A stretch of DNA of 42,195 nucleotides, taken from the IMG/VR virus record IMGVR_UViG_3300021371_000037, positions 1 to 42,195 of that record; one strand, 5' to 3'. This document shows, piece by piece, positions 1,879-36,003 of the stretch (position 1 is the first letter of the stretch; each line of letters starts with the position of its first letter). The position numbers were made by a program, and so were the translations under genes. This stretch comes from a virus. The notes beneath the pieces are model-generated. The model saw only the letters and a program-made list of their open reading frames with translations, searched no databases and had not been told where the DNA came from.

Positions 1879-1892
1879 ATTAAAAACATACA

Positions 1893-1918: not shown

Positions 1919-1943
1919 TAAGAGTAAAAGTAAAAATGAGATC

Positions 1944-1970
1944 TGTGGCCTCCGTTTGGAGGCCACATTT
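1944..1970 (+). terminator. Hairpin terminator after the leader and micro-ORF genes
   Basis: TGTGGCCTCC (1944-1953) pairs perfectly with GGAGGCCACA (1958-1967) around a GTTT loop. It is the most GC-rich spot in the neighbourhood and is followed by a weak T tract. The loop also carries the TTTG of the following promoter, so the two elements overlap. Confidence 0.6.
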
Positions 1971-1984
1971 AAGTTTCGTATATT
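1955..1984 (+). promoter_or_regulatory. Bacteroidota-type promoter for the FAD oxidoreductase gene
   Basis: TTTG (1955-1958) and TATATT (1979-1984) are separated by exactly 20 bases. The element is 25 bases before the ATG at 2010. The segment TAAGTTTCGTATATT is shared exactly with the promoter at 3287-3316. Compare the known Bacteroidota pattern TTG-N19/20-TAnnTTTG. Confidence 0.55.
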
Positions 1985-2009
1985 AACGCGTTAAAAATAG
2001 GAATACAAT

Positions 2010-19353: not shown

Positions 19354-19917
19354 ATGGCAATGTATACTGGGCTTAGAGATTGGTCTCTAATGCGACATTT
19401 AAATAGAGAAGTTATGGGTAATGTTATTACCCAACAATGTGCCTTATATCAATTTAAGTTAGAAGAAACTAAAGTTAATATTTACGGTGAAGCAGCTGAA
19501 GAAAAGTATTATAATGGTCCTTTTTTATTTAATGTTTTAATTAATAGAACAGATCAACAATATGGGGAAGATGAAGAAGGAATCCAGTATAATCAACCTA
19601 TTGATTTTTATTTTTTGTTAGATGATTTAAAAGCTGTTAGCCCAAATTACCCTTTAGGAAACCCAGCAGCAGCAGTAGTCCCAGAAGTTGGTGATATAGT
19701 TTTGTATCAAGAAGGGTATTATGGGGTACAAAGTACAGTTGCTAACCAATATTGGGGGGGAAAAAATCCTGCATACCCAAATAATGATTCTGATGGTAGA
19801 CCAAACCCATTAAACCCTGGTTTAGACCAATTTGGAAACAATGTATCATTATTAGTATCAACATACTATATTCCAGCTGATAAAGTTGCAATTTCACCTT
19901 ATAAAGAACGTTTCTAA
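19354..19917 (+). CDS. Neck protein (gp14-like)
   Basis: The 187-residue protein starts one base after the previous stop. The order QQYGEDEEGIQYNQPIDFYF, then PEVGDIVLYQEGYYGV, then KVAISPYKERF is like T4-type gp14 neck proteins, where an acidic QPI/V-type segment precedes a GDxI beta strand. It would form the head-to-tail connector ring with the preceding gene product. Its last base is the first base of the next ATG, a tight translational coupling. Confidence 0.6.
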   Translation: MAMYTGLRDWSLMRHLNREVMGNVITQQCALYQFKLEETKVNIYGEAAEEKYYNGPFLFNVLINRTDQQYGEDEEGIQYNQPIDFYFLLDDLKAVSPNYPLGNPAAAVVPEVGDIVLYQEGYYGVQSTVANQYWGGKNPAYPNNDSDGRPNPLNPGLDQFGNNVSLLVSTYYIPADKVAISPYKERF

Positions 19918-20900
19918 TGGCAATACGAAAACCAGTACCTAAAACACAAAAAGAATTATCTAATGATCAAATTAGACCGACATCGGCTAGGTATGGTAAT
20001 CCTAATATTCCTTTACCTACTAATGAAAATGAAACAGGTATACCATTTAATAGATCAGAAAAATTATCTTGGACAGGTGATACTACAAAACCATTTTCAA
20101 TTGGTATTAAAGATTTAGATGAAGCTGTATTTTATTATTTTCAAAATGTAATTAAACCTTTTGTATATCAAAATGGAGAAAGAAGAGAAGTACCTGTAAT
20201 ATATGGTTCCCCTGAAAGATGGAAATCTTTTCAAAAAGATAATTACTATAGAGATAAAAAAGGAGCTATAATGTTACCTATTATTGTACTTAAAAGAAAT
20301 TCTATAGAAAAAGATAGAACAGTATATAATAAATTAGATGCTAATAGTCCTAATTTATATGGTAGTTTCCAACGTGCTTATAATCCTAAAAACTTTTATA
20401 ATAATTTTGATGCTATTAATAATGCAATTCCCGCAAAACAATTTTATGCTGTAGCAGTTCCTGATTTTGTTAATTTAGAATATAGTTGTTTAATCCAAAC
20501 TTATTACATGGAACAATTAAATAAAATTATTGAATCATGTGAGTACGCTTCTGATGCTTATTGGGGTAATCCTGAAAGATTTAAATTTAGAGCATTTATT
20601 GATAGTTTTTCAACTGAAACATCGTTAACACCTAATAAAGATAGATTAGTAAAAGGTACATTTAATATTAGATTAAGAGGATATATTATCCCTGATACCG
20701 TGCAAAAAGATATGAATTCAATATCTAAATATAATACTAAATCTAAATTTATTATTTCAATGGAAACAACATCTAATGCTGAAATTTTCAAAGAAGGTGT
20801 AACTAAAACAAGAGATGGTAGAACTAGGAGAAGTAATGAAAATGAAGGAGGACTTACTGGTATTTATGATGTGAAGAGTGGTAAAGAATTAAAACAATAG
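19917..20900 (+). CDS. Tail completion / sheath terminator protein (gp15-like)
   Basis: The 327-residue protein has elements in the same order as T4 gp15. VYQNGERREVPVIYGSPERW parallels the T4 segment leading to VPITYAS. KGAIMLPIIVLKRNSIEKDR follows. YSCLIQTYYMEQLNKIIESC parallels a T4 helix. KFRAFIDSFS...FNIRLRGYIIPD matches the C-terminal strands. gp15 caps the tail and joins it to the neck. The protein carries a C-terminal extension rich in Arg/Asn/Glu. The gene shares one base with the previous stop. Confidence 0.65.
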   Translation: MAIRKPVPKTQKELSNDQIRPTSARYGNPNIPLPTNENETGIPFNRSEKLSWTGDTTKPFSIGIKDLDEAVFYYFQNVIKPFVYQNGERREVPVIYGSPERWKSFQKDNYYRDKKGAIMLPIIVLKRNSIEKDRTVYNKLDANSPNLYGSFQRAYNPKNFYNNFDAINNAIPAKQFYAVAVPDFVNLEYSCLIQTYYMEQLNKIIESCEYASDAYWGNPERFKFRAFIDSFSTETSLTPNKDRLVKGTFNIRLRGYIIPDTVQKDMNSISKYNTKSKFIISMETTSNAEIFKEGVTKTRDGRTRRSNENEGGLTGIYDVKSGKELKQ

Positions 20901-21314: not shown

Positions 21315-21333
21315 ATAAAAAAATTAATATAAA

Positions 21334-22542
21334 ATGGCAAATTGGAAAAAGGTAGTAGTTAGTGGATCTAATGCAGAATTAGCAGAATTAACTTTATCAA
21401 ACTTATCACAACAGGCAACTGAAAACACTGTATTAACTATTAATACTGCTGGAGTAGTTGGAACAAGAGAAAATGCTGCAAGTTCTGGTACTTCAGGTAC
21501 TAGTGGATCAGATGGTTCATCCGGTTCTTCAGGAACAAGTGGTGTAGATGGTAACCCAGGTTCAAGTGGTTCTTCAGGAACAAGTGGAACTAGTGGATCA
21601 GATGGTTCAAGCGGTTCTTCAGGTACAAGTGGAGACTCTGGTTCAAGTGGTTCTAGTGGTACATCAGGAACTAGCGGTGATGATGGTGCTCCAGGTTCAA
21701 GTGGTTCTTCAGGAACAAGTGGAACTAGTGGATCAGATGGTTCAAGTGGTTCTTCAGGAACAAGTGGTGTAGATGGTGATGCTGGTTCAAGTGGTTCATC
21801 AGGAACTTCTGGTACAAGTGGTGCTGACGGTGACGCTGGTTCTTCAGGTTCTAGTGGTACATCAGGCTCAAGTGGTTCAGATGGTTCTTCAGGATCAAGT
21901 GGTACAAGTGGTTCTTCTGGTTCTTCAGGTACTTCAGGTACTAGTGGATCAGATGGTTCATCAGGTTCTAGTGGAACAAGTGGTTCTTCTGGATCAAGTG
22001 GAACATCAGGCTCATCAGGTTCTAGTGGAACAAGTGGTGTAATCAATGTTACTAATTCTGGTAATAACAGAGTATTAACAGATATTGATGGTGATAGTGC
22101 CAATGCTGAACAAAATATGACTTTTGTAAGTGATGGTGGTTCTACAGTAGGTGGTTTATTAACAGTAACCGGTGATGTAGTAATTAGTCATGATTTAACA
22201 GTACAAGGTACAGCATCTTTCCAAAATTCAGAAAATTTATTAGTAGCTGATAGATTTATCTTAATGGCTTCTGGTTCTACTTCTGTAGGAGATGGTGGTA
22301 TTGTAGTACAACAAGATACTCAAGATTATGGTGATGCTTTTGCATTTGATGGTTTATCAACTGAAAGATGGGGTGTAACAAGTTCTTTCCATGCTAGTGG
22401 ATCAGGATTTACACCAGATGCTTTCATGGCAACAGTAGTAGTAGGTTCAGGTGGAGCATTACCTTCTTCTGCCCCTACTAGATACCAAGCTGAAGGTAAT
22501 ATTTTTACATCAGCTTCAGGTGATATTTATATTTACTCTTAA
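21334..22542 (+). CDS. Collagen-like Gly-Ser/Thr-rich tail fibre protein (short paralogue)
   Basis: This is a 402-residue fibre protein. Residues 1-48 form an anchor domain (ANWKKVVVSGSNAELAELTL ... VGTRENAASSG) shared with the gene at 23083. Residues ~50-235 are an uninterrupted Gly-x-y tract built from GSSGTSG, GTSGSDG and GSSGSSG units with some GVDGNPG. The C-terminal ~165 residues are beta-rich (VINVTNSGNNRVL..., LTVTGDVVISHDLTVQGTASF) and may form the receptor-binding tip. The tract has almost no proline, so it is collagen-like in periodicity only. Its Ser/Thr density makes it a candidate glycosylation substrate. Confidence 0.8.
   Translation: MANWKKVVVSGSNAELAELTLSNLSQQATENTVLTINTAGVVGTRENAASSGTSGTSGSDGSSGSSGTSGVDGNPGSSGSSGTSGTSGSDGSSGSSGTSGDSGSSGSSGTSGTSGDDGAPGSSGSSGTSGTSGSDGSSGSSGTSGVDGDAGSSGSSGTSGTSGADGDAGSSGSSGTSGSSGSDGSSGSSGTSGSSGSSGTSGTSGSDGSSGSSGTSGSSGSSGTSGSSGSSGTSGVINVTNSGNNRVLTDIDGDSANAEQNMTFVSDGGSTVGGLLTVTGDVVISHDLTVQGTASFQNSENLLVADRFILMASGSTSVGDGGIVVQQDTQDYGDAFAFDGLSTERWGVTSSFHASGSGFTPDAFMATVVVGSGGALPSSAPTRYQAEGNIFTSASGDIYIYS
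21481..22035 (+). repeat. Gly-Ser-Ser/Thr coding repeat tract
   Basis: The nine-base periodic DNA coding for (G-S/T-S)n produces long spurious ORFs in other frames and on the opposite strand. Serine codons alternate between TCA/TCT and AGT, so the repeat is degenerate at DNA level. Confidence 0.9.
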
Positions 22543-22556
22543 AAAAGTAAAAAAAA

Positions 22557-22796
22557 TTGTTATTAAAAAAATTAAAAAGGTTTATGGGATTTAAATCTAA
22601 TAAAGTTGAAATAAAAGGAGTACCTACTGATAAAGTTGGTACTCCTTTAACTCATAATATAGAATTAACAGAAAAAGAAATAGAATTATTATTACTTACT
22701 GTTAAAAATGGTTTATTTAAAGGAGAGTATGTAGAAATACTTTATAATTTAACTTTAAAAATTCAAGAAAAATATAAAGAAATTAAAAAATTATAG
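22557..22796 (+). CDS. Small basic protein of unknown function
   Basis: This is a 79-residue protein if read from the TTG at 22557, or 70 residues from the ATG at 22584. Both starts follow A-rich stretches, so the choice is open. The sequence is LLKKLKRFMGFKSNKVEIKG, then a helical LTEKEIELLLLTVKNGLFKG and a Lys-rich end. The first half encodes an 11-bp perfect hairpin (22614-22648). It lies between two fibre genes and continues directly into the next small gene, so it may be a fibre assembly helper. No family is recognised. Confidence 0.5.
   Translation: MLLKKLKRFMGFKSNKVEIKGVPTDKVGTPLTHNIELTEKEIELLLLTVKNGLFKGEYVEILYNLTLKIQEKYKEIKKL
22614..22648 (+). other. 11-bp perfect inverted repeat inside the coding region
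   Basis: AAAGGAGTACC (22614-22624) pairs with GGTACTCCTTT (22638-22648) around a 13-base loop. It is not followed by a T run beyond CTTT. Confidence 0.6.
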
Positions 22797-22798
22797 TT

Positions 22799-22996
22799 AT
22801 GGCTTATAATTTAACTAATTTGTCTTTAAGAGAATTACGTGCTCTTAGAAAGTCAACTAATTATATTCCAATTACTGGTATTGATGCTATTTTTATAGGA
22901 ACTTTACAGGTTAAATTAGATCAAAAAATTGGAAATATTGAAAACCAAATAAGAGAAGAAGAAGAAAATACAACTCCTCTTCCTCCTGGTCAATAG
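22799..22996 (+). CDS. Small helical protein of unknown function
   Basis: The 65-residue protein starts two bases after the previous stop. Helical segments (LTNLSLRELRALRKSTNY and IGTLQVKLDQKIGNIENQIREE) end in a TPLPPGQ tail. The N-terminal LSLRELRALR pattern is common in small phage helical proteins. It is in an operon with the preceding small gene. No function can be assigned. Confidence 0.45.
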   Translation: MAYNLTNLSLRELRALRKSTNYIPITGIDAIFIGTLQVKLDQKIGNIENQIREEEENTTPLPPGQ

Positions 22997-23010
22997 GAAA
23001 AATTTAAGAC

Positions 23011-23024
23011 ATATTTATAATAAA
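23011..23024 (+). promoter_or_regulatory. Late promoter element (exact)
   Basis: It lies upstream of the giant fibre gene, but 58 bases from the ATG, leaving room for a structured leader. Confidence 0.65.
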
Positions 23025-23030
23025 TATTAC

Positions 23031-23050
23031 GGCCCTTCGGGGAAGTGGGC
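23031..23050 (+). other. GC-rich leader hairpin with UUCG
   Basis: CCC-TTCG-GGG (23033-23042) can form a UUCG tetraloop hairpin. Alternatively, GCCC (23032-23035) can pair with GGGC (23047-23050). It is the only GC-rich segment in the leader between promoter and ATG, so it may regulate translation or stability of the fibre mRNA. Confidence 0.4.
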
Positions 23051-23082
23051 ACTTTGTGTAACCAACCTAATGATAAATTGAT

Positions 23083-26000
23083 ATGCCAAATTGGAAAAAA
23101 GTAATACTTAGTGGTAGTAATGCTGAGTTAAATGAACTTAAATTAACAGGTCTTTCAACCCAAGGATCTGAGAATACAACCCTTGTAATAAATAGTAGTG
23201 GTCAAGTAGGAACAAGAGAAAATGCTGCTTCCAGTGGTACTTCAGGTTCTTCAGGAAGTTCAGGTTCATCAGGTACATCAGGATCAAGTGGAAGTAGTGG
23301 TTCATCAGGTTCATCAGGTTCAAGTGGTACTTCTGGTTCATCAGGTTCAAGTGGCACTTCAGGTTCAAGTGGTTCAAATGGTAGTTCAGGGTCTTCAGGC
23401 TCATCTGGTTCTTCAGGAACAAGTGGTGTAGATGGTAACCCAGGCTCTAGTGGGTCTTCAGGTACATCGGGTTCATCAGGTTCATCAGGAAGTTCAGGTT
23501 CATCAGGTACATCAGGATCAAGTGGTTCAAGTGGTACTTCAGGTTCTAGTGGTAGTTCAGGTTCAAGTGGTTCATCTGGAACTTCGGGAGCAGCTACTAT
23601 TAATAATAATGTTGATACTTATTTATTAACAGCAACCGGAACTTCAGGTTTAATTGAAGGTGAAGCTAATTTAACATTTTCAGGATCAACTTTATTAACT
23701 GTATCAGGATCAGGTAGTACAATTTTAGATGTACAAGGATCCCAAGGTCAATTATTTTCAGTAACTGATGATTTAACTGGGATAGTATTTGCAGCATCAG
23801 ATATATCGGGTGTTCCTATTTTATCCGTAAGTGGTTCAGGTTTAACAATGATTGATGGGACTTTACAAATTCCAAATTTACCTAATATAACAACTAGTAA
23901 TGATGTATTAGTAATAGATTCAAATGGTAATATAGGATATGAAGCAAATGCTGCTTCTAGTGGTACTTCTGGTTCAAGTGGTTCATCAGGAAGTTCAGGT
24001 ACATCGGGTTCATCAGGAAGTTCAGGCTCATCCGGCTCTTCAGGTACATCAGGCTCATCCGGCTCTTCGGGTACATCAGGTTCATCTGGTTCTAATGGTT
24101 CAAGTGGCTCATCAGGTACTTCAGGAAATTCAGGTTCAAGTGGTTCTTCAGGTACAAGTGGTTCTTCAGGTTCAGATGGAACATCTGGTTCAAGTGGCTC
24201 ATCAGGTACTTCAGGTAATTCAGGCTCAAGTGGTTCAAGTGGTACTTCAGGTAATTCTGGTTCAAGTGGCTCTAGTGGCTCTTCAGGTTCATCAGGTACT
24301 TCAGGAAATTCAGGTTCAAGCGGTTCATCTGGAACTTCCGGTTCATCAGGTTCATCAGGTTCAAGTGGAAGTAGTGGCTCATCGGGTTCAAGTGGCTCAT
24401 CAGGTACTTCAGGACAAGATGGTAACTTTGGTGGTGCTACATTTGACTATACTTTTAGTACTTCTACTACAATTGCAAATCCAGGAGGAGGAAATATAAG
24501 ATTAAATAATTCAACCCAAACATCTGCAACAGTAGCTGCAATTAGTGAAACTGATGATGATGGAAATTCTGTTCAATCATTTTTTGAAACTATAGATTCA
24601 TCAACTTCAGCTGTAAAAGGTCATATGAGATTATCAGATAAAGATGATCCTTCAGATTTTATACTATTTGCCCTTGATGAATTGGTTGACCAAGGGGATT
24701 GGTGGCAATTTACAATAATATTTGAATCCCAAGGGGGTAATGCTTTAACAAACGGTGAAGATATTATAGCATCCTTTGTAACAACAGGTGATAGAGGAGA
24801 TGATGGTACATCAGGTTCATCTGGTAGTTCAGGTTCATCTGGTAGTTCAGGTTCATCTGGTAGCTCAGGCTCATCAGGTTCATCAGGTACATCAGGTAAC
24901 TCAGGCTCATCAGGTTCATCAGGTACATCAGGTAACTCAGGCTCATCTGGTTCTTCTGGAACAAGTGGTACCTCAGGTTCATCTGGTTCTTCAGGAACTT
25001 CAGGAACTTCAGGTAATTCTGGTTCAAGTGGCTCCAGTGGTTCATCAGGTTCTTCAGGTACATCAGGTTCATCAGGTTCATCAGGAACTTCGGGTAATTC
25101 TGGTTCTAGTGGTTCATCTGGTTCTAGTGGTTCATCTGGTACTAGTGGCTCTAGTGGCTCTAGTGGTACTTCAGGTCAAGATGGAGGTACAATAGCAAGA
25201 TTTAATGGATATGATAATGGTACTTTAAACACTACTAATTTTTCAACTAATGGGACAACAGCATTTTTAAAAGTTGATACTACACAATATGGTTTAGACC
25301 CATCAATTAATACAAACTATTATACATTTACTAATCAATCAGATACTATTACTATTGATAATGATGGTTATTATATAATTAATGCTAATATTGTATTTTT
25401 AGTATCAACTAGAAGCACATTAAGATCAATGATGGCAGCTTCTGTTTATATTAATGGTGTTAAACAAGAAGACACTTATGCTGATTCATACTCAAGGGGA
25501 TCTAGTTATAACGAGGATATAAACGTATCTGTTAAAGCTTATTATTTCTTATCAGCTAATGATACTATTAAAATAGAGCTTGAAACAGCTCATATGGATA
25601 CTAGTGGTAATGGTACTGTTGCAGTACAAGATGCTGTTTGGAATGTAGCATTTATAACTGGAACAGCAGCTGCAGCTGGTAATGATGGTTCATCAGGAAC
25701 AAGTGGTACATCAGGTTCATCAGGTTCATCAGGAACTTCGGGTAATTCTGGTTCTAGTGGTTCATCTGGTACTAGTGGCTCTAGTGGCTCTAGTGGTACT
25801 TCAGGTGGAACAGGCTCACCTGGTACTTCAGGAACTTCAGGCTCTTCAGGTTCATCAGGATCATCAGGTACTAGTGGTTCAAGTGGTTCTAGTGGTACAA
25901 GTGGCGGTACTGGTTCTCCAGGTACTTCAGGTACTTCAGGCTCTTCAGGCTCTTCAGGTTCATCAGGAACATCAGGCTCCTCAGGATCTTCAGGTACAAG

Positions 26001-27351
26001 TGGTGGTACCGGTTCCCCAGGTACTTCAGGTTCATCAGGTTCATCAGGTTCATCAGGTACTAGTGGTAATAGTGGTTCTTCAGGTTCTAGTGGTACTTCA
26101 GGTAACTCCGGTTCTTCAGGTTCATCAGGAACATCAGGTGGACAAGGTGACCCAGGTTCCCCAGGTACTTCAGGTTCATCCGGTTCAAGTGGTTCATCAG
26201 GTACATCAGGTTCATCAGGTTCATCAGGTACATCAGGTTCATCAGGTTCATCAGGTACTACTACTATTACAAATAATTCAAATAATAGAGTATTAACCGC
26301 TACTGGTACTTCAACAATTAATGGTGAATCTAATTTAACTTTTGATGGTACTTGTCTTGCAGGACCAATTTTACAATTTGGTTTTTGTCATACAATAGGA
26401 TCAGGATTTAGTTACCCTTCCGTTACAGGTGGAAGCCAAAATACATCATCAGCATCTTGTTCTACTATAGGTGGTGGATGTAGAAATTTTATTTGTGATA
26501 CTGGTGGTTCTTTTATAGGAGCGGGTGATAGAAATTGTATTTCTGGGTCAGGATGTTTTAATATAATTGGAGCTGGTCAAGTTAATAAAATTTGTGCACT
26601 TGGTAGTTGTACTGCTCAAGTAACAATGGCTGGAATTTTTGCTGGTGCGAATAATACAATAACTGGTGTAACAGGTGGTTGTGTGCATATTGGTTCTGGT
26701 TATTCAAACCTAATTTGTGGTAACTCTGCGTATTCAAGTATAGTTGGAGGATGGGACAATACTATTTGTTCTTCTCAAAAAGCCTCAATAGTAGCAGGAT
26801 GTAATAACTGTATTTGCAATAGTGCTAATGATAGTGTTATTTTAGGAGGGTATTCAAATTATATAAATGGTCAAACTTGTACTTTTGTTGCGGGTAATAA
26901 TATTAGTACTACAACTTCCAATTCTTTATATATGAATAATGGAATTGTTACTCAACACTTGCAAGTAGGAGGAACATCTCCTTGTAATACAACTACAGGT
27001 AGAATTGATGCAACAAATGATGTTGTAGCATATGCAACCTCAGATAGAAGATTAAAAGAAAATATTAAGCCTATTGATAGTGCTTTATGTAAAGTAATCG
27101 GAGTATCAGGTAATACATTTGATTGGAAAGAGTTAACTAAAGAAGAAAAACTAGTTATACATGGTAATGAAGGACCGGATGTTGGTGTAATTGCCCAAGA
27201 AATAGAAGAAGTATTACCTGAAGCAGTTACTACAAGAGAAAGTGGTTATAAAGCTGTTAATTATGAAAAAATTGTACCTTTATTAATTGAAGCAATTAAA
27301 GACTTAACAAATAAAGTAGAAAAATTAGAAACAAAAATAAATAAAAAATAA
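23083..27351 (+). CDS. Giant collagen-like tail fibre with C1q-like domain and S74 self-cleaving chaperone
   Basis: This is a 1422-residue fibre protein. Domains in order are: anchor 1-48 (shared with 21334); Gly-Ser-Ser/Thr tracts ~50-169, 290-445, 575-697 and 869-1057; beta spacers ~170-288, 446-573 (a sandwich-like unit, DYTFSTSTTIANPGGG... to FVTTGDRGDDG) and ~703-862. The last spacer looks like a C1q/TNF jelly roll (DTITIDNDGYYIINANIVF, SVYINGVKQ, SANDTIKIELE). Residues ~1060-1310 are a Cys-rich beta region with IGGG/IGAG-type turns. Residues ~1318-1422 are a peptidase S74 intramolecular chaperone, with predicted self-cleavage before Ser1320 in TSDRRLKENIKP. The C-terminus ends in a coiled coil that would trimerise the fibre. 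Confidence 0.9.
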   Translation: MPNWKKVILSGSNAELNELKLTGLSTQGSENTTLVINSSGQVGTRENAASSGTSGSSGSSGSSGTSGSSGSSGSSGSSGSSGTSGSSGSSGTSGSSGSNGSSGSSGSSGSSGTSGVDGNPGSSGSSGTSGSSGSSGSSGSSGTSGSSGSSGTSGSSGSSGSSGSSGTSGAATINNNVDTYLLTATGTSGLIEGEANLTFSGSTLLTVSGSGSTILDVQGSQGQLFSVTDDLTGIVFAASDISGVPILSVSGSGLTMIDGTLQIPNLPNITTSNDVLVIDSNGNIGYEANAASSGTSGSSGSSGSSGTSGSSGSSGSSGSSGTSGSSGSSGTSGSSGSNGSSGSSGTSGNSGSSGSSGTSGSSGSDGTSGSSGSSGTSGNSGSSGSSGTSGNSGSSGSSGSSGSSGTSGNSGSSGSSGTSGSSGSSGSSGSSGSSGSSGSSGTSGQDGNFGGATFDYTFSTSTTIANPGGGNIRLNNSTQTSATVAAISETDDDGNSVQSFFETIDSSTSAVKGHMRLSDKDDPSDFILFALDELVDQGDWWQFTIIFESQGGNALTNGEDIIASFVTTGDRGDDGTSGSSGSSGSSGSSGSSGSSGSSGSSGTSGNSGSSGSSGTSGNSGSSGSSGTSGTSGSSGSSGTSGTSGNSGSSGSSGSSGSSGTSGSSGSSGTSGNSGSSGSSGSSGSSGTSGSSGSSGTSGQDGGTIARFNGYDNGTLNTTNFSTNGTTAFLKVDTTQYGLDPSINTNYYTFTNQSDTITIDNDGYYIINANIVFLVSTRSTLRSMMAASVYINGVKQEDTYADSYSRGSSYNEDINVSVKAYYFLSANDTIKIELETAHMDTSGNGTVAVQDAVWNVAFITGTAAAAGNDGSSGTSGTSGSSGSSGTSGNSGSSGSSGTSGSSGSSGTSGGTGSPGTSGTSGSSGSSGSSGTSGSSGSSGTSGGTGSPGTSGTSGSSGSSGSSGTSGSSGSSGTSGGTGSPGTSGSSGSSGSSGTSGNSGSSGSSGTSGNSGSSGSSGTSGGQGDPGSPGTSGSSGSSGSSGTSGSSGSSGTSGSSGSSGTTTITNNSNNRVLTATGTSTINGESNLTFDGTCLAGPILQFGFCHTIGSGFSYPSVTGGSQNTSSASCSTIGGGCRNFICDTGGSFIGAGDRNCISGSGCFNIIGAGQVNKICALGSCTAQVTMAGIFAGANNTITGVTGGCVHIGSGYSNLICGNSAYSSIVGGWDNTICSSQKASIVAGCNNCICNSANDSVILGGYSNYINGQTCTFVAGNNISTTTSNSLYMNNGIVTQHLQVGGTSPCNTTTGRIDATNDVVAYATSDRRLKENIKPIDSALCKVIGVSGNTFDWKELTKEEKLVIHGNEGPDVGVIAQEIEEVLPEAVTTRESGYKAVNYEKIVPLLIEAIKDLTNKVEKLETKINKK
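23230..23589 (+). repeat. Gly-Ser-Ser/Thr tract 1 of the giant fibre
   Basis: It encodes about 120 residues of (G-S-S)/(G-T-S) units with single GSNG and GVDGNPG interruptions. Confidence 0.9.
23950..24420 (+). repeat. Gly-Ser-Ser/Thr tract 2 of the giant fibre
   Basis: It encodes about 155 residues, with recurrent GNSGSSGSSGTS units and one GSDGTSG. Confidence 0.9.
24806..25176 (+). repeat. Gly-Ser-Ser/Thr tract 3 of the giant fibre
   Basis: It encodes about 123 residues and shares long DNA-level identity with the start of tract 4 (GNSGSSGSS...GTSGSSG), consistent with duplication or recombination. Confidence 0.9.
25687..26255 (+). repeat. Gly-Ser-Ser/Thr tract 4 of the giant fibre
   Basis: It encodes about 189 residues. 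Three repeated GGTGSPGTSG units and one GGQGDPGSPGTSG are the only places with proline, giving short genuinely collagen-like patches. Confidence 0.9.
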
Positions 27352-27662
27352 TGACACATACTTGGGAAGTACATAATCTTGAAAGAGTTTTAGATGGAAA
27401 TGTAGTAACTAAAATTTACTTTAGAGTATACTCTGAAGAAAACGGAATTTTCAAAAATTATTTTGGTGAACATACTATAACAGGATCGGCATCAGACCCC
27501 AATTTTATTCCCTTTGAAAATCTAACTCAAAATGTAGTAGTAGAATGGTTAAAAAGTGGTGTTGATGTAACTGCTATTCAAACAATTAATGAAGATAGAA
27601 TAAACGAAGAAATTGCAGCTTACGTAGCTCCAACAACAGAAGAAGGAATACCTTGGGGATAA
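27351..27662 (+). CDS. Small fibre-associated protein, possible assembly helper
   Basis: The ATG of this 103-residue protein shares one base with the stop of the giant fibre gene, so it is translationally coupled. The pattern THTWEVHNLERVLDGNVVTKIYFRVY followed by IPFENLTQNVVVEWL and a C-terminal PWG is that of small proteins commonly next to tail fibres and other structural genes in marine phages. The function is unproven. Coupling to the fibre gene suggests a fibre chaperone or a virion subunit made in matched amounts. Confidence 0.55.
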   Translation: MTHTWEVHNLERVLDGNVVTKIYFRVYSEENGIFKNYFGEHTITGSASDPNFIPFENLTQNVVVEWLKSGVDVTAIQTINEDRINEEIAAYVAPTTEEGIPWG

Positions 27663-27692
27663 TTTGATATACTAAAATAGTTTTTGTATATT
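27663..27692 (+). promoter_or_regulatory. Bacteroidota-type promoter for the glycosylation cassette
   Basis: TTTG (27663-27666), exactly 20 bases, then TATATT (27687-27692). It is preceded by AGTTTTTG like the elements at 1955 and 3287. It is 27 bases before the ATG at 27720. No late element is present. Confidence 0.55.
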
Positions 27693-27719
27693 ATAGTTAT
27701 AAATTAAATAAAGTTATAA

Positions 27720-28598
27720 ATGAATATTATATTCCAAATCGAGGGAGGACTCGGTAAATCTATTATGGCAACTGCCATAGTAAAAGCTATTAAAAATCGT
27801 TATAAAAACGCGAAACTAATAGTAGTCACAGCATATACCGATGTATTTTTAAATAACCCCTATATACATGAAGTTTACCACATAAACTATTTAAGTGGAA
27901 TATATCCAAAATATATAAAAGATCAAAAATGTAAAATTTTTGCAAATGAGCCTTATAAAACATCAGATTTTATACTTGATAAACCAGTTCATTTATTAAA
28001 AACTTGGTGTGAACTCATTGGTATTAGATATAACAATGAACAACCTGAAATATATCTTTCAAAACCAGAAACAGAATATTTTTCTCCTTATTATTCAACT
28101 GAAAAACCTATTTTAGCTATCCAACCTAATGGGGGACCCCAAGGTATGGGTTATCAATATGCATGGACTAGAGATATACCTACTAAATTAGTAAAAGAAA
28201 TTATAGATTATTATAAAAAAGATTATACTATAATTCATATTAAAAGAGAGGATCAATTAATATATCCTGATACCTTACAAGCTTTAGATGGGTATAGAAG
28301 TATAGCTATTCTTCTTCAAAAAGCTAGTAAAAGATTATTAATAGATAGTTTTAGCCAACATATGGCTAGAGCATTAAATAGAAAATCTACAGTATGTTGG
28401 GTAAATACAAAACCAGAAATATTCGGTTATAATTTTCATGACAACATAAAAGCAAATCCTTATACTAAAGATATACCATTACATAATATAGCTTATGCTC
28501 CCTTTAATTTATCCGAAGGAATATCTAGTATGCCTTATAATGATTTAAACGAAGTATTTGATATAAATAAAATTATTACATCTATAAATAACCAATAA
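27720..28598 (+). CDS. GT9-like glycosyltransferase (heptosyltransferase fold)
   Basis: The 292-residue protein resembles the ADP-heptose:LPS heptosyltransferase family (GT-B fold). The N-terminus NIIFQIEGGLGKSIMATAIV has the GGxGK donor-loop pattern. The C-terminal half has LAIQPNGGP and LLIDSFSQHMARALNRKSTVCW, equivalent to the DS..HxA.A..K...V donor-binding stretch of GT9. No membrane segment is seen, so it is cytoplasmic. It starts a three-gene glycosyltransferase run behind its own non-late promoter and ends flush with the next ATG. The donor and acceptor are unknown. Confidence 0.75.
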   Translation: MNIIFQIEGGLGKSIMATAIVKAIKNRYKNAKLIVVTAYTDVFLNNPYIHEVYHINYLSGIYPKYIKDQKCKIFANEPYKTSDFILDKPVHLLKTWCELIGIRYNNEQPEIYLSKPETEYFSPYYSTEKPILAIQPNGGPQGMGYQYAWTRDIPTKLVKEIIDYYKKDYTIIHIKREDQLIYPDTLQALDGYRSIAILLQKASKRLLIDSFSQHMARALNRKSTVCWVNTKPEIFGYNFHDNIKANPYTKDIPLHNIAYAPFNLSEGISSMPYNDLNEVFDINKIITSINNQ

Positions 28599-31500
28599 AT
28601 GCCAGATAATACTAAAATTTTAGTTTCTAGTTGTTATATAGGAACAACAGGTTTTAATAATCATTCTCGTGATTTTTTTAGAAACCTTTCAAATTATTAT
28701 CCATTAAAAATTAGAAATTTTACGGTACCTAAATATTGGAATGGTTTAAAAGATGAACCTTTTAATGAAGAACCCTATATAACTGATTTAGATAAAAAAT
28801 TAATTTCAACTCAAACTACATTTGCTGATAATAAAAAATTACATGATACTAAAATTTATAAAAATTATCCTAATAATTTAGACCATAACTTAAACATAAT
28901 TTTAGCTGAAGTAAACCATCATTATTTTTATCAAACATATGAAGGACCTAAAATTGCTTATTTAGTGTGGGAAACAACTGAATATCCAAAACAATTTTAT
29001 AATAGAATAAAAGAATTTGACCAAATTTGGGTACCTTCCCAATGGCAAAAAGAATGTAATATAATCCAAGGTATTCCAGAAAAGAAAATTAAAGTAGTAC
29101 CTGAAGCTGTAGATGGAGAAGTATTTAAACCTAATAAAGAAGCAACATTACCTGAGTATGATGATAAAAGATTTAAATTTATTCATTTTGGAAGATGGGA
29201 TTATAGAAAATCAACTAAAGAAGTAATTGAAAGTTTTTTAAAAGAATTTGATAAAAATGAACCCGTAGATTTAATACTTTCTATTGATAATATATTTGCT
29301 AAAGATGGTTTTAAAACAACTGAAGAAAGATTAAAACATTATAAATTAATTGATCCTAGAATTAAAATCAAACATTTTCCTTCTCGAGAAGAATATATTA
29401 AATATTTACAAAAAGGGCATGTGTTTTTATCTTGTGCCCGTTCTGAAGGATGGAATTTACCTTTAATTGAAGCTATGGCTTGTGGTACTCCTTCTATTTA
29501 TTCTAATTGTAGTGCTCAACTAGAATTTGCTGAAGGAAAAGGATTACCTGTAAATGTTATAGGAACACAACCCGCTATTAGGGGAGAATATAGTACATAC
29601 TCTCAATCAGAATTATCAGGAGAATTTTACACCCCAGATTTTATCCATCTTAGAGAAGTAATGAGAGATGCTTATGAAAATTATGATTATCATAAAAAAG
29701 AAGCATTAAAAGAATCCAAAGATATTAGAGAAAAATTTACTTGGGATAATATGGCTAAAATAGCTAGTAAAGAAATAGACTCTTTTATGGCTAATCCTCC
29801 AAAAAATACAGTTGAAATTAGTTTTAATCAAGGAGCAAAAGTAGAAGTATTTGGTTCTAATAAAAATGAATATTTTGTAGAATTTATAAATGCTGATACT
29901 AATAAAGTAATACATTCTAGTACTATTAAAAATAATATGTGGACTAAATGTAATCTTGAATATTATATTCCCTGGATCATCAAAATAGATGGTGATGTAG
30001 TTCATACTTTTGATGTAACTAACCAAACAGTTAAGATATCCTTAGACTCAAAATCTGTAGGAGATACTTTAGCATGGACCCCACAAGTTTTAGAATTTCA
30101 AAAGAAACATAATTGTAAAGTTATAGTTAGTACTTTTCATAATGAATGGTTTGAAAATAATCCTGAATATAAAAACATTAAATTTGTTAAACCAGAGGAA
30201 TCTGTTAATTCATATGTACATTATAAAATAGGGTGGTTTAAAACTAATGGAAAATGGGATAAAGGTAAAAAAAATAAAAACCAAGTAAATACTATTCCTC
30301 TAATTCAAGCTGCTAGTGATGCTTTAGGATTGTCTTATAAAGAAATTAACTATGGTGTAGATTTTAAAATTGGGAAAAGACCTATTAAAGAAAAATATAT
30401 TTGTATTGGTCCTAAATCAACCTCAGGATTAAAAGAATGGCCCCATGACAGATGGAGAAGTTTAGCTAAAAAACTACATAAAAAGGGATATAAAATAGTT
30501 AATTTATCTTATGAAGGATTTTCTGGAACAAATATAATTAATAAAAAGAAACTTAATTGGGAAAAAACTTTTAATTATCTTTACCATGCTGATTTATTTA
30601 TAGGTTTAGGATCTGGTTTATCTTGGGCAAATTGGGCTTTAGACAAACCAACCTTAATGATTAATAATTTTATTCCTTTTGGTTATGAATTTACAAATAA
30701 ATTAACTAAAATAGAAAATAATACAGTATGTAATAATTGTTGGGTTAATAAAGATTTTACTTTTGATCCTGGTAATTGGGATTGGTGCCCTAAAAATGAA
30801 GGAACTCCAAAACAACATATATGTCAAAAATCTATTACAGTAGATCAAGTTTATTTAGAATGTTTAAATATATTAGAACCTAAAAACAATACAGATTTTG
30901 TTTGGGTAACAGGGGGTGATAAACCTTATTTATCTATGATAGAAGTTTTAGCTAAAAGTCTTTTAAAACATTCTAAACATAAATTACTTGTATATGGTTT
31001 TAATTGTGATCCCAAAATTAATTTACCTAATGTAATTAATAAAAGAATAGATTTTGATCCTAAACCAATAAGACATATCCCTAATGAATTTGATTTAATA
31101 GATAAAGATTATTCTTTATATTATGCTAAATATCTAACCAGTTTAGATTCTTTAAATACTGAATATCAAAATTTTGCTTGGATAGATGGTGATGCTTTTG
31201 TTACTGAACATATTGATAAATCTTTAAAGTATATTTCTAATTTAACAGATTATCCTTTATTTATGAGATATTTTGATGAAGATATGGTTCATTGGAGAAA
31301 ATATAAAAATATAAAATTAGAAGGACATTATGGGGCAGAAATATCACATATCTTAGATATTGAAAGAAACCCAAATAAAAATATTATAGCAACTGGTTTT
31401 TATTTTTATAATAAAGATTCAAAATCATTTTTCCAAAAATGTTTAGATTTAAACCAAAAATTAAATTTACAAAATTTACAAATATTTGCAGATGATAATG

Positions 31501-32342
31501 CCTTCTCAGAAGAAAGAATAACTAATGCTTTACTTTGGAAAGAAAATAAAACAAATCATTTACCTATTACATGGAATAATTATTATTCCCCTAAGGAAAA
31601 AGTTGTTGTAGATCAAAGTATATTAGATAAAGGGTTTGATATTATGTTTGATATAGCAAATAAACAACCTTATTTTGTACATGGACCGGACCCATCAGTT
31701 GTTTCTAAAAACAGTAAAACTCTGGATATAATGTACCAGGACTACCAATTAAAAAAATTAATGATAGTAGCTCATCCTGATGATGAATTGATATTTGGGG
31801 GTGCCGAATTAATAAAATATGGTCCTGAATATAAAGTTATTTGTCTTACCAATAAATCAAATAAAATTAGAAGTAAAGAATTTGAACAGGTAATGAAAAA
31901 ATTAAATGTAGGTTCTTGGGAAATTCTTGATCATAAAGACGATTTAAATAACCCTCCTGAAAAGTATAATATTGAATCAATATTACTAGGTAGACAATGG
32001 GAAAAAATAGTAACTCATAACCCTATAGGTGAATACGGACATCCACAACATAAAGCTATATTTAACTTTATTAAAGAATATATTGATAAAATTATTTTAG
32101 AAGATATATTATATGTATTTGGGAAATCTAATACTAAGTTAGATAAGAAAAACTTGAAAACTAAAAAAGAATTACTTACATTGTATAAATCTGAACAACC
32201 TATTATTAATCAGTTATTAAACAATAAGGGAAGTTGGTTTAAAAGTAGTAATAATAATACTAACTATATAGAACATGAGTCTATAAAAAAATATAATAAA
32301 AAAAAGGATAAAAATAATTATATAGCATGTTATGAAAAATAA
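28599..32342 (+). CDS. Four-domain glycosylation enzyme: GT4, TibC-like O-heptosyltransferase, GT-A transferase, PIG-L deacetylase
   Basis: This is a 1247-residue fusion. (1) Residues ~1-395 are a GT4-like GT-B enzyme with CARSEGWNLPLIEAMACGTP (Glu283 and Glu291, E-x7-E) and FIHFGRWDYRKS. (2) Residues ~399-757 match the bacterial autotransporter O-heptosyltransferase family (TibC/Aah). The matching features are SVGDTLAWTPQVLEFQKKHN, a GLGSGLSWANWALDKPT donor region, and a four-cysteine iron motif CNNCW...WCP...CQKSIT (Cys711, 714, 730, 742). (3) Residues ~764-1045 are a GT-A domain with WIDGDAF (Asp863, Asp865). (4) Residues ~1052-1230 are a PIG-L/LmbE zinc deacetylase with AHPDDE (His1059, Asp1061, Asp1062) and EYGHPQH (His1148, His1151). 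All motifs look intact. Confidence 0.85.
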   Translation: MPDNTKILVSSCYIGTTGFNNHSRDFFRNLSNYYPLKIRNFTVPKYWNGLKDEPFNEEPYITDLDKKLISTQTTFADNKKLHDTKIYKNYPNNLDHNLNIILAEVNHHYFYQTYEGPKIAYLVWETTEYPKQFYNRIKEFDQIWVPSQWQKECNIIQGIPEKKIKVVPEAVDGEVFKPNKEATLPEYDDKRFKFIHFGRWDYRKSTKEVIESFLKEFDKNEPVDLILSIDNIFAKDGFKTTEERLKHYKLIDPRIKIKHFPSREEYIKYLQKGHVFLSCARSEGWNLPLIEAMACGTPSIYSNCSAQLEFAEGKGLPVNVIGTQPAIRGEYSTYSQSELSGEFYTPDFIHLREVMRDAYENYDYHKKEALKESKDIREKFTWDNMAKIASKEIDSFMANPPKNTVEISFNQGAKVEVFGSNKNEYFVEFINADTNKVIHSSTIKNNMWTKCNLEYYIPWIIKIDGDVVHTFDVTNQTVKISLDSKSVGDTLAWTPQVLEFQKKHNCKVIVSTFHNEWFENNPEYKNIKFVKPEESVNSYVHYKIGWFKTNGKWDKGKKNKNQVNTIPLIQAASDALGLSYKEINYGVDFKIGKRPIKEKYICIGPKSTSGLKEWPHDRWRSLAKKLHKKGYKIVNLSYEGFSGTNIINKKKLNWEKTFNYLYHADLFIGLGSGLSWANWALDKPTLMINNFIPFGYEFTNKLTKIENNTVCNNCWVNKDFTFDPGNWDWCPKNEGTPKQHICQKSITVDQVYLECLNILEPKNNTDFVWVTGGDKPYLSMIEVLAKSLLKHSKHKLLVYGFNCDPKINLPNVINKRIDFDPKPIRHIPNEFDLIDKDYSLYYAKYLTSLDSLNTEYQNFAWIDGDAFVTEHIDKSLKYISNLTDYPLFMRYFDEDMVHWRKYKNIKLEGHYGAEISHILDIERNPNKNIIATGFYFYNKDSKSFFQKCLDLNQKLNLQNLQIFADDNAFSEERITNALLWKENKTNHLPITWNNYYSPKEKVVVDQSILDKGFDIMFDIANKQPYFVHGPDPSVVSKNSKTLDIMYQDYQLKKLMIVAHPDDELIFGGAELIKYGPEYKVICLTNKSNKIRSKEFEQVMKKLNVGSWEILDHKDDLNNPPEKYNIESILLGRQWEKIVTHNPIGEYGHPQHKAIFNFIKEYIDKIILEDILYVFGKSNTKLDKKNLKTKKELLTLYKSEQPIINQLLNNKGSWFKSSNNNTNYIEHESIKKYNKKKDKNNYIACYEK

Positions 32343-33309
32343 AAATTTAGTTATAATATTATGCCATTGTAATGATGATACTAAGAAAAATATTTTAAAT
32401 AAAAATATAGATAGAATTAAAAAAGAAGGATTTGATATAATGGTGTTATCTCATATTCCTGTATCTAACTCCATACAAGAAAAAATAAATTATTTTATCT
32501 ATGATAAAAGTAATCCTGTAATTGAATATCCTTATAGAGGAATGGTATTTTGGAAAAATTTAAATTTTAAAGATAAATCTATTAAATTGCAAAATATATT
32601 AAATGATTATGGGTGGACAGCATTTAACCAAATATTATTAGCTGGAAATTTAGGGGTATCATTAGATTATGATTATTTTAGTTTCATTAATTATGATGTT
32701 AAGATAACGGATAATATTATTCATGATTTAAATAATCCTATTCCTTTTTTAGTATCTAAAGTAAAAGATTTAAGATTAAAAGATATAGATTATAGATTTC
32801 CAAGTTTTATGTTAAATGTTTTATCAAAAGAAAATTTAAAATCTATACTACCCATTATAAATAAAAAATATTACATGAGTGACCAACACCCATGGAAAAA
32901 TGATGGAAAATTTAGAGATGCAGAAGAATATTGGGAACAATTAATTAAAAATTTCGAATATAGTACCCACATAGAACCAATTGCAGATCAAGTTAGTTAT
33001 TGGAGTGAAGAAACAGATGGTTTATTTAATTTTAGTAAAAATAAAGATTTTAAAATATTTTTCCAAAATTCAAATACTCATAAAAGAATTATGACCCAAG
33101 ATTTTATTCCAAGAATAATAATTTATGATAATTCTCTTCCTGAATTAATATTAGTAGTGAATTCTTTAGAAACAATTATTGATAAAGAAAACATATGCTT
33201 AGACCTTCCAGAAGAAATATCAAAAATTGGGTATATAGTAAAAGGTGAATATTATGACTTAACAAAAGTATATAATAAGTCTATTTATTCAACTATAGAT
33301 TTTAACTAA
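32332..33309 (+). CDS. Putative GT-A-type glycosyltransferase
   Basis: The 325-residue protein overlaps the end of the four-domain gene by 11 bases. The start (NLVIILCHCNDDTKKNILNKNI) is an alpha/beta strand-helix pattern, and FSFINYDVKITDN near residue 120 is an Asp-containing strand end like the metal site of GT-A enzymes. The central GNLGVSLDYDYF and the later EPIADQVSYWSEETDG fit sugar transferases only loosely. Its place at the end of a glycosyltransferase run is the main support. The substrate is unknown. Confidence 0.5.
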   Translation: MKNKNLVIILCHCNDDTKKNILNKNIDRIKKEGFDIMVLSHIPVSNSIQEKINYFIYDKSNPVIEYPYRGMVFWKNLNFKDKSIKLQNILNDYGWTAFNQILLAGNLGVSLDYDYFSFINYDVKITDNIIHDLNNPIPFLVSKVKDLRLKDIDYRFPSFMLNVLSKENLKSILPIINKKYYMSDQHPWKNDGKFRDAEEYWEQLIKNFEYSTHIEPIADQVSYWSEETDGLFNFSKNKDFKIFFQNSNTHKRIMTQDFIPRIIIYDNSLPELILVVNSLETIIDKENICLDLPEEISKIGYIVKGEYYDLTKVYNKSIYSTIDFN

Positions 33310-33654: not shown

Positions 33655-36003
33655 ATGGCAGAAACATTAATATCTCCAGGAGTATTAGCAAGAGAAAACG
33701 ATCAATCCCTTGTTACAGCTCAACCCCTAACTAGAGGAGCAGCAATTATAGGACCAACAGTTAAAGGACCGGTTGAAAAACCAACTTTAGTTAGTTCTTA
33801 TAGTTCATTCCAAACAATTTTTGGTTCTACTTTAGAAAGTGGTTCTCAAGATTACACTTATTTAACTTCAATTGCAGCTAATAATTATTTCCAACAAGGT
33901 GGAACTTCTTTACTTGTAACTAGAGTAACAAGTGGTAGTTTTGATCCTGCTTTATCTACAACTATCCAAAATAATGTTGAATCTACAACAGCAGGATTAG
34001 CTGGAAACCTTATAGGAGACTATACTAGTGGTGGTACAGGAGGTGATAAAGGTACTTTTACTACCGTTGCTTCAAATACTACTCCTAATAATGGAGCAAC
34101 TTTTTCAATAACAGTTGGTGAATTAACAAATTTAATAGCAACTCAAAACGTAACAGCAGATAGTGCTTTTGTAGGTGGTACTACAATAGGTGCTGTAGCA
34201 GGACCATTTACAGTTGCAATAACATCTGTATCAGGTGGTACACAACAAGATGGTACAGGAGCAACTCTTACAATTACAACAGATGGTGGTGGAGCAGCTG
34301 GTGCTTTAGTATCAGTTGTAGTAGCTGACGCAGGATCGGGTTATGTTACTGGAAATATATTAACAATTTCTGCAGCTGATTTAGTTACTGCTGGATTTAC
34401 AGCTTGTGATAAAGACTTACAATTTACTGTTGAAGATGACAATTTATTAAATGGAGTAACTGCAATTAATGTAATTGAAGATGGAGCAGGATACGCAAAA
34501 GATGACGTATTAACTATAGCAGCCGCTGCGATCGGAACTCCAACAGCTGATTTAGTAATAACTTTAACAGATAGTTCAATTGTTAATCAAAACGCTTTTG
34601 TACTAGAAACTCTTTCTGAAGGACTTATTATGAATAACACATCCCCAGTAGGAGCTGATACTGGAGGAACAGAATTACCAAATGGAGCATTAGCAAGTGG
34701 TTCTGCAGATAACTTAAGATGGGAAATTGGGGCTGTAAACACAGCATCAGGTGTATTCTCATTATTTATTAGACGTGGTAATGATAATAATAATCAAAAA
34801 GTTATTTTAGAATCATTTAATAATATCTCTTTAGATCCATTTTCTCCAAATTATATCTCAAGAGCAATTGGTGATGTTACTTCAAATGTAGTAGTAGCAG
34901 GAGATGGTTCAGGAACTTATTTACAAGAATCAGGTTCTTATCCTAATGTATCTAATTATGTAAGAGTAAAAGAAGTAAATGCACCAACCCCTTATTACTT
35001 TGATAATAATGGTGTAGCAAAAACTGAATTTACAGCATCTTTACCTCAATTAGGATCTGGTTCATTTGATCAAGGTGTAGGTTCAAACTTAAACACAGTA
35101 TCATATAACAGATTTTACGAACAAATTGATTCAGTAAATACGCAAGGAGTAATTGGAACAGATTATACTAATGCAATTAATTTATTAGCAAATCAGGATG
35201 AATATCAATACAATGTAATTTCAGCTCCAGGTTTATATTATTCAAATTATGCTGTACAGTGTAATTTAATTAAAAATATGTGTATTTCAAGAGGAGATGC
35301 AATTTATGTAATGGATTTAGTTCCTTATAATACAGCAATTGCAACTGTAAACCAAAATGCAGGAGCTATAGATTCAAGTTATGCAGCTGCATACTGGCCT
35401 TGGTTACAAACTATTGATCCAAGTAGTGGGTTACTAGTGTATGTACCAGCTTCTACAATGATTCCAGGAGTATATGCATTTACAGATGCTTCTTCAGATC
35501 CATGGTTTGCACCAGCAGGTATTACTAGGGGAGGATTAGGTGCTGTAGTAAGAGCTGAAAGAAAATTAACTTCAGCAAACAGAGATACTTTATATGAAGC
35601 AAATGTAAATCCAATTGCTACATTCCCACAACAAGGAGTAGTAGTATTTGGTCAGAAAACGCTACAAAAAGCAGCAACTGCTTTAGATAGAGTAAATGTA
35701 CGAAGATTATTGATTACACTTAAAGATTATATTTCTCAAATTGCTGACAACTTAGTATTTGAACAAAATACAATAGCAACAAGACAAAATTTCTTAACAC
35801 AAGTAAATCCATATTTAGAATCAGTACAACAAAGACAAGGATTATATGCTTTTAAAGTAGTAATGGATGAAACAAATAATACACCAGATGTTATTGATAG
35901 AAATGAGTTAATTGGACAGATTTTCTTACAACCAACTAAAACAGCTGAATTTATTATACTAGATTTCAATGTATTACCAACTGGAGCAACATTCCCAGCA
36001 TAA
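33655..36003 (+). CDS. Contractile tail sheath protein (gp18-like)
   Basis: The 782-residue sheath subunit starts with ETLISPGVLARENDQSLVTA and RGAAIIGPTVKGPVEKPTLV, and the QTIFG...YLTSIAANNYFQQGGTSLLVTRV segment follows, all typical of T4-type sheaths. The C-terminal domain is clear: TFPQQGVVVFGQKTL, DRVNVRRLLITLKDYISQIA, FLQPTKTAEFIILDFNVLPTG. The central ~250 residues (from about residue 130) are a Gly/Thr-rich insertion of beta repeats (GSGYVTGNILTI and GAGYAKDDVLTI) that probably decorate the sheath surface. Late promoter upstream, and the tube gene follows. Confidence 0.95.
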   Translation: MAETLISPGVLARENDQSLVTAQPLTRGAAIIGPTVKGPVEKPTLVSSYSSFQTIFGSTLESGSQDYTYLTSIAANNYFQQGGTSLLVTRVTSGSFDPALSTTIQNNVESTTAGLAGNLIGDYTSGGTGGDKGTFTTVASNTTPNNGATFSITVGELTNLIATQNVTADSAFVGGTTIGAVAGPFTVAITSVSGGTQQDGTGATLTITTDGGGAAGALVSVVVADAGSGYVTGNILTISAADLVTAGFTACDKDLQFTVEDDNLLNGVTAINVIEDGAGYAKDDVLTIAAAAIGTPTADLVITLTDSSIVNQNAFVLETLSEGLIMNNTSPVGADTGGTELPNGALASGSADNLRWEIGAVNTASGVFSLFIRRGNDNNNQKVILESFNNISLDPFSPNYISRAIGDVTSNVVVAGDGSGTYLQESGSYPNVSNYVRVKEVNAPTPYYFDNNGVAKTEFTASLPQLGSGSFDQGVGSNLNTVSYNRFYEQIDSVNTQGVIGTDYTNAINLLANQDEYQYNVISAPGLYYSNYAVQCNLIKNMCISRGDAIYVMDLVPYNTAIATVNQNAGAIDSSYAAAYWPWLQTIDPSSGLLVYVPASTMIPGVYAFTDASSDPWFAPAGITRGGLGAVVRAERKLTSANRDTLYEANVNPIATFPQQGVVVFGQKTLQKAATALDRVNVRRLLITLKDYISQIADNLVFEQNTIATRQNFLTQVNPYLESVQQRQGLYAFKVVMDETNNTPDVIDRNELIGQIFLQPTKTAEFIILDFNVLPTGATFPA

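Follow-up and report, generated by a model that had tools for sequence, protein, structure and literature searches.

Phage glycosyltransferases are usually read as enzymes that modify the host surface or DNA. The window analysed here, the 42,195 bases of the complete IMG/VR record IMGVR_UViG_3300021371_000037, raises the question of whether such enzymes can serve the virion itself. The record derives from an aquatic T4-like myovirus, of which it covers a part with genes for terminase, gp20-like portal, prohead protease, PhoH, sheath, and tube. Two of its tail fibre genes contain long Gly-Ser/Thr repeats and are followed by a set of enzyme genes, one of which encodes a 1247-residue protein with a domain related to the protein O-glycosyltransferase TibC of Escherichia coli. 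Judged from gene content and comparative genomics, this cassette is probably a system with which the phage glycosylates its own tail fibres.

Fibre tracts

The features of the two fibre genes are as follows (window coordinates, strand, description).

21334..22542, + strand: fibre 1, 402 residues, with the N-terminal adaptor MANWKKVVVSGSNAEL, a Ser/Thr Gly-X-Y tract, and a small C-terminal domain
21487..22044, + strand: fibre 1 Ser/Thr Gly-X-Y tract, residues 52-237, the presumed glycosylation substrate
23083..27351, + strand: fibre 2, 1422 residues, with the adaptor of fibre 1, Ser/Thr Gly-X-Y spacers alternating with globular domains, and a C-terminal Peptidase_S74 chaperone
23236..23595, + strand: fibre 2 tract a, Ser/Thr Gly-X-Y, residues 52-171
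23962..24432, + strand: fibre 2 tract b, Ser/Thr Gly-X-Y, residues 294-450
24415..24807, + strand: fibre 2 globular domain, common to fibres whose spacers are not Ser/Thr-rich, and the anchor of the spacer/enzyme comparison below
24787..25185, + strand: fibre 2 tract c, Ser/Thr Gly-X-Y, residues 569-701
25678..26262, + strand: fibre 2 tract d, Ser/Thr Gly-X-Y, five runs, residues 866-1060
27040..27231, + strand: fibre 2 Peptidase_S74 intramolecular chaperone (E 1.6e-14)

Both fibres start with the same adaptor (MANWKKVVVSGSNAEL and MPNWKKVILSGSNAEL, respectively). Fibre 1 has an uninterrupted Gly-X-Y run of 186 residues, 87% of which are Gly, Ser, or Thr, and fibre 2 has eight runs that total 597 residues and are 92-97% Gly, Ser, or Thr. 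Together the Gly-X-Y runs comprise 783 residues, including 456 Ser/Thr, and the predominant triplets are GSS (143), GTS (72), and GNS (11). The initial annotation had reported about 770 residues of near-pure Gly-Ser-Ser/Thr; the extent of the tracts was confirmed, but fibre 1 is not near-pure and the tracts are a collagen-type repeat of period 3 with interruptions. Consistent with the long runs of Gly at every third residue, the Pfam Collagen family (PF01391) was matched far beyond chance by fibre 1 (E=5.5e-28) and fibre 2 (E=1.6e-77). The X and Y positions are almost exclusively Ser or Thr with very little Pro, and they lack the richness in Pro or charge by which a triple helix is stabilised when unmodified. 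Identity at a lag of nine within the tracts fell to 0.41-0.51 at third codon positions and reached 0.66-0.78 at second positions, the lowest and highest values, respectively; therefore, the repeat is maintained at the protein level, and DNA slippage alone is not favoured as the origin of the tracts. A literature search on GSSGTSG tracts returned nothing relevant.

A long Pro/Glu/Leu-rich frame is open on the minus strand at 21324-22103, antisense to the GST repeat. It is an artefact of codon make-up, and antisense frames over GST repeats likely give rise to false annotations in phages of this type.

The TibC-type domain

The initial annotation had placed a four-domain enzyme with a TibC-like domain at 28599, and four domains were indeed found there.

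28599..32342, + strand: 1247-residue enzyme, GT4 + TibC-type + GT-A + PIG-L
28647..29765, + strand: GT4 glycosyltransferase domain, residues 17-389
29805..30857, + strand: TibC-type protein O-glycosyltransferase domain, residues 403-753, with Asp489, Thr608, Lys612, Trp676, and the iron-finger Cys711/714/730/742
30873..31754, + strand: GT-A glycosyltransferase domain, residues 759-1052, motif WIDGDAF
31758..32081, + strand: PIG-L/LmbE-type de-N-acetylase domain, residues 1054-1161 (E 2.9e-11)

The protein scored 197.7 bits as a whole against TIGR04414 (hepto_Aah_TibC) and 200.3 bits with its frame neighbours, the curated cut-off being 200, and it matched TibC in the PDB with E=8e-31. For E. 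coli TibC, the structure paper (eLife 03714) names as functional the catalytic base Asp110, the donor residues Thr226, Lys230, and Trp305, and the iron-finger Cys339, Cys342, Cys358, and Cys370. All are kept in the window, the first four as D489, T608, K612, and W676 and the intact iron finger as C711, C714, C730, and C742. Across 73 non-redundant phage domains, Asp110 was conserved in every one, Thr226 in 63, Lys230 and Trp305 in 72 each, and the iron-finger Cys in 70-71. TibC acts on the Gly/Ser/Thr-rich peptide GGVQHVSSGGSATSSTINSGG (eLife 03714). Because these residues are kept, the conserved sequence makes protein O-transfer by the TibC-type domain likely.

The nature of the transferred sugar is a separate matter. 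Arg286 of TibC, which contacts the adenine of ADP-heptose, corresponds to Thr657 in the window, and Arg was found at this position in 8 of 37 phage domains versus all 39 BAHTs (autotransporter-type enzymes). The beta-hairpin thumb involved in dodecamer formation is absent, with a gap at 265/266 in the window and in 34 of the 37 phage domains. In the tree, E. coli TibC and the other autotransporter enzymes formed a clade of 40 rows with 100 support in the Shimodaira-Hasegawa-like approximate likelihood ratio test (SH-aLRT), and the window domain fell outside it. ADP-heptose synthase (rfaE domain II) was above the cut-off in none of 50 records, nearly all of them Ser/Thr-tract records; a phage-made ADP-heptose donor is thus not supported, and a nucleotide-sugar donor would be host-derived. 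The identification of the domain as an O-heptosyltransferase in the initial annotation is not upheld by this comparison: neither Arg286 nor the thumb is kept, and heptose is not supported by these sequences.

Co-occurrence of enzyme and tract

IMG/VR records matching a DNA pattern for Ser/Thr Gly-X-Y were compared with records matching one for Gly-Pro-X, both sets being taken from among the matches listed, and the whole records were searched with TIGR04414. The family was present in 25 of 50 Ser/Thr-tract records and in 1 of 50 Gly-Pro-X collagen records (Fisher p=9e-9), and that single positive control is itself a match to the Ser/Thr pattern. In the same sets a GT4 domain accompanied TibC in all 25 positive tract records, and 3 of the 25 tract records without TibC and 10 of the 50 controls had one. 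Because GT4 content in the TibC-negative tract records resembles that in the controls, the association concerns TibC in particular, and a general enrichment of glycosyltransferases was ruled out as its cause. Within the clade of the window, part of which was collected through TibC itself, the enzyme was present in all 14 tract-bearing records and a tract in none of the 13 records that lack TibC (p=0.002).

Exchanges of the spacer between homologous fibres gave a similar picture. When fibres were anchored on the globular domain of fibre 2 at 24415..24807, TibC accompanied 20 of 35 with Ser/Thr-rich spacers and 1 of 14 with other spacers (p=0.001). One relative (L067) has the adaptor and a globular domain in common with fibre 2; its spacers read GAQGNTG, and it lacks TibC. 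When only records of 60 kb or more were considered, the enzyme was located 5.5 kb or less from the tract in 12 of 18, compared with 3.2 expected under random enzyme placement, and the gap was 0-40 bp in L352, L355, L358, and L359. As tail genes cluster anyway, adjacency is taken as supporting evidence only.

Among 50,697 phage records, the sole isolate with the enzyme was Microcystis phage Mel-JY01 (L110, PP395634.1). A plus-strand open reading frame (ORF) at 2-3052 encodes a GST tract of several hundred residues, and a gene for a 1226-residue GT4/methyltransferase/TibC protein (TIGR04414, 317 bits) starts 1.7 kb downstream of it. A 'cytidylyltransferase-like' protein near this enzyme had no NCBIfam match. 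The GST-repeat fibre ORF of Mel-JY01 is unannotated, and the minus-strand coding sequences WWT39286.1 and WWT39287.1 and a truncated coding sequence are deposited in its place. Literature searches on TibC with phage returned nothing describing such a system.

Bacterial chromosomal relatives

Relatives of the TibC-type domain in bacterial genomes were found with an alignment as query; a single-protein query of the same genomes gave no match. In Methylobacter luteus, Methylomicrobium, and other gammaproteobacteria, the chromosomal relatives are located 22-1091 bp from genes whose small products carry GTS/GSS repeats and are secreted proteins or lipoproteins, and the Methylobacter luteus locus lies among housekeeping genes and is clearly chromosomal. 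A Gly-Ser/Thr tract was nearby in 0 of 39 members of the E. coli TibC clade versus 36 of 58 outside it. Such pairs were observed at L475 (8950-11140), L477, L474, L476, L485, L487, and L492, and literature searches found no description of the pair in Methylobacter, Methylomicrobium, or the other gammaproteobacteria.

Two contigs binned as bacterial belong elsewhere or may do so. Sheath and tail genes on L470 (JABDKL010000107.1, a Winogradskyella metagenome-assembled genome) show it to be a phage contig. The other, L481 (JAAEPJ010000383.1), with a TibC domain 75% identical to that of the window, is probably one as well.

Proposed mechanism and alternative explanations

Virion self-glycosylation calls for a phage transferase linked to a structural-protein substrate, and such a link was found here in both gene order and co-occurrence. 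In the proposed mechanism, the collagen-like fibres would offer several hundred Ser/Thr in GSS/GTS triplets. During late gene expression, the TibC-type domain would prime these residues with a first sugar in the host cytoplasm, using nucleotide-sugar donors supplied by the host. GT4, fused to the TibC-type domain, would then lengthen the glycan together with the GT-B and GT-A enzymes encoded separately, and the PIG-L domain would strip the N-acetyl group off an amino sugar of the glycan and expose its amino group. The likely outcome would be fibres densely covered in mucin-like sugars, a coat that lends support to their Pro-poor and probably weak collagen helix while shielding or tuning it. 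Stiffer fibres, resistance to proteases, and tuned receptor binding, as suggested in the initial annotation, are no more than possible benefits. The proposal of the initial annotation that substrate and Ser/Thr glycosyltransferase are carried together survived every test able to refute it, including the co-occurrence, fibre-spacer, adjacency, and bacterial comparisons. That related tract phages always carry TibC nearby, which it had suggested surveying, is a stricter claim than these records bear out.

Several observations weigh against the mechanism. About half of the Ser/Thr-tract records show no TibC, and TibC is present in 17 of 30 tract-less records of the clade, most records in both cases being fragments. 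LR756501 and LR756504 have the enzyme and no tract within 10 kb. Lineage and habitat may not be the same in the Gly-Pro-X control phages, and phylogeny-corrected pairs almost always agree in direction where they differ but are too few for significance. The 77-kb record G016 has TibC and no Gly-X-Y tract; it contains instead an unrelated fibre with about 64% Ser/Thr. This fibre-like ORF of STTTTFNTS repeats is located on the minus strand at 16239-17465 of L385. Because enzyme and Ser/Thr-rich fibre are both present in G016, its sequence suggests that fibres other than Gly-X-Y types may be substrates. A Ser/Thr-rich ORF in L384 was dismissed as the antisense of an acidic protein.

The glycosyltransferases might alternatively alter the surface of the host, whether lipopolysaccharide O-chain or capsule, against co-infection, the fibre neighbourhood being a host-recognition island and the tract an unmodified flexible spacer. 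The glycosyltransferases in the host-recognition region of pelagimyophages have been read in this way (PMC7029224); GT4, GT9, GT-A, and PIG-L domains typically belong to polysaccharide pathways, and some TibC-positive records have no visible tract. However, the known iron-finger members of the TibC fold act on protein Ser, and the residues concerned are kept in the window. The enzyme also tracks the Ser/Thr content of the spacer and not the mere presence of a collagen-like fibre, which generic GT4 does not, and its bacterial chromosomal relatives are paired with secreted GSS/GTS proteins. Given the spacer dependence and the bacterial pairs, modification of the host O-chain is disfavoured for this enzyme, and we consider an action on the host surface unlikely. 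We regard it as very improbable that the target is another virion protein (sheath, capsid, or other fibre) or phage DNA and that the Gly-Ser/Thr tract is coincidental. L024, L064, and L071, in which a standalone glycosyltransferase and TibC form a pair directly between the gp15-like and sheath genes with no tract nearby, would fit such a target, and glycosylation of DNA and of capsid or tail-tube proteins by phages is known (discussed in PMC12619734). Against it, the association with the tract spans distant phages and also bacteria, which have neither sheath nor phage DNA, and in G016 a different Ser/Thr-rich fibre takes the place of the tract fibre.

Fibre glycosylation could also take a simpler form, in which the TibC domain adds a single monosaccharide, as TibC and Aah do, and the other glycosyltransferases and the deacetylase belong to an unrelated pathway. 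The cassette is modular among relatives. Clade members L015-L018, L047, L063, and L095 keep only GT4-TibC, so the GT-A, PIG-L, and 32332 modules are dispensable; in L038 and L042, GT4-TibC is separate from GT-A-PIG-L, and in L024, L064, and L071, GT4 and TibC are two genes. This simpler form is nevertheless rather unlikely: GT4 accompanies TibC in every TibC-positive tract record, usually fused to it or otherwise in a neighbouring gene, and in the window the remaining modules are fused into the same polypeptide.

Locus layout and other cassette genes

The remaining genes of the locus and its borders are as follows.

19917..20900, + strand: gp15-like tail completion protein, left border; named from the initial annotation and position only, with no family match found
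27351..27662, + strand: small DUF7936 / phrog_7802 protein, function not assigned; its start overlaps the fibre 2 stop
27720..28598, + strand: GT9-like (GT-B) putative glycosyltransferase, weak family match
32332..33309, + strand: second GT-A-fold putative glycosyltransferase, overlapping the end of the 1247-residue enzyme
33655..36003, + strand: tail sheath, right border of the cassette

Between the gp15-like and sheath genes, the order is two fibres, DUF7936, GT9-like, 1247-residue enzyme, and GT-A protein, and the enzyme genes 3' of fibre 2 abut or overlap each other. In the cassette-free relatives L048 and L073, the gp15-like and sheath genes are about 360 bp apart, which supports an insertion of the cassette between them, as had been supposed. 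The nearest cultured phage based on the sheath is Flavobacterium phage immuto (53%), which gave no TibC match and showed no Gly-X-Y tract in 33 kb of its sequence.

An ORF was present where a GT9-like enzyme had been predicted downstream of the fibres, but its similarity to that family is weak, PF01075 being matched by 2 of 16 members of its protein family (best 4e-8). Zinc-binding motifs AHPDDE and GHPQH are present in the PIG-L domain, which scored 44.4 bits against PF02585 (cut-off 28.2). Domain 759-1052 and the 32332 protein had no family match by sequence. Their AlphaFold2 models had predicted local distance difference test (pLDDT) values of 89 and 90 and matched GT-A enzymes such as glycogenin, LH3, and the PBCV-1 capsid glycosyltransferase (E 3e-7 and 3e-5, with template modelling scores of just 0.3-0.5). 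Both are assigned to the GT-A fold from these models, which is a call of fold and not of function, and the earlier description of the 32332 product as another glycosyltransferase-like protein agrees with this assignment.

The fibre genes are separated by two short ORFs of about 70 and 65 residues (22585-23000), which are under the ORF cut-off of most gene callers. The DUF7936 scan gave one match. Genes of this type sit between the fibre and GT9-like genes in most close relatives, and the DUF7936 protein is possibly an accessory fibre protein.

Comparison with known systems

The window domain shares with the TibC/Aah enzymes (TIGR04414, the BAHT family) the fold family, catalytic and donor residues, four iron-finger Cys, and pairing with repetitive proteins rich in Ser, Gly, and Thr as acceptors, which for the window are presumed. 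It differs in its fusion to GT4, GT-A, and PIG-L, in the loss of Arg286 and the thumb, and in its position outside the fully supported BAHT clade; its partner is a collagen-like phage fibre, whereas that of TibC/Aah is an autotransporter beta-helix. Mimivirus L230 is a virus-encoded collagen glycosylase that hydroxylates and glucosylates Lys (PMC9614988). There, too, one virus encodes a collagen-like protein and the enzyme that glycosylates it, but the enzyme is unrelated, the target is Lys, and the virus infects amoebae.

According to Freeman et al. 2023, as cited in PMC12619734, mycobacteriophages glycosylate their capsid and tail-tube proteins. These are glycans on a phage's own structural proteins, but that account places them at capsid and tail-tube C-termini and not on fibre repeats. 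The cuticle collagen of the vent worm Riftia is held in a triple helix by glycosylated Thr in place of hydroxyproline (Mann et al. 1996, as cited in PMC6953826). This animal extracellular collagen, with a sugar on Thr that stabilises a Gly-X-Y helix, is a parallel to the proposed benefit as a functional analogy only. The side tail fibres EPclA/B of E. coli prophages, as described in the sections consulted of PMC3368898, also have collagen triple-helix spacers between globular domains. They are rich in Pro and charge, which the window tracts lack; the recombinant form is reported to be unglycosylated and stable without sugars, and those sections report no TibC partner.

Significance

From the sequences compared here, TibC-type chemistry most likely exists outside the autotransporter family and is aimed at collagen-like phage fibres, and through co-occurrence, adjacency, and natural spacer swaps one class of phage glycosyltransferase can be tied to a specific virion substrate. 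On balance we lean towards regarding the TibC-type domains found in phages and on the chromosomes of methanotrophs and other gammaproteobacteria as a branch (or grade) of protein O-glycosyltransferases that has so far gone undescribed and is dedicated to (Gly-Ser/Thr-Ser/Thr)n proteins. Its phage members would build collagen-like tail fibres coated with an oligosaccharide that can be extended and is de-N-acetylated, and fibres of this type would be common in aquatic phages. If this is true, a TibC-like branch with simple (GSS)n sequences as its target would be common to phages and bacterial secreted proteins and might provide a compact tool for producing densely glycosylated repeat proteins. 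Microcystis phage Mel-JY01 is an isolated phage in which the idea is testable. If the idea is true, many aquatic phages wear fibres of glycoprotein, with a bearing on adsorption, particle stability, and recognition.

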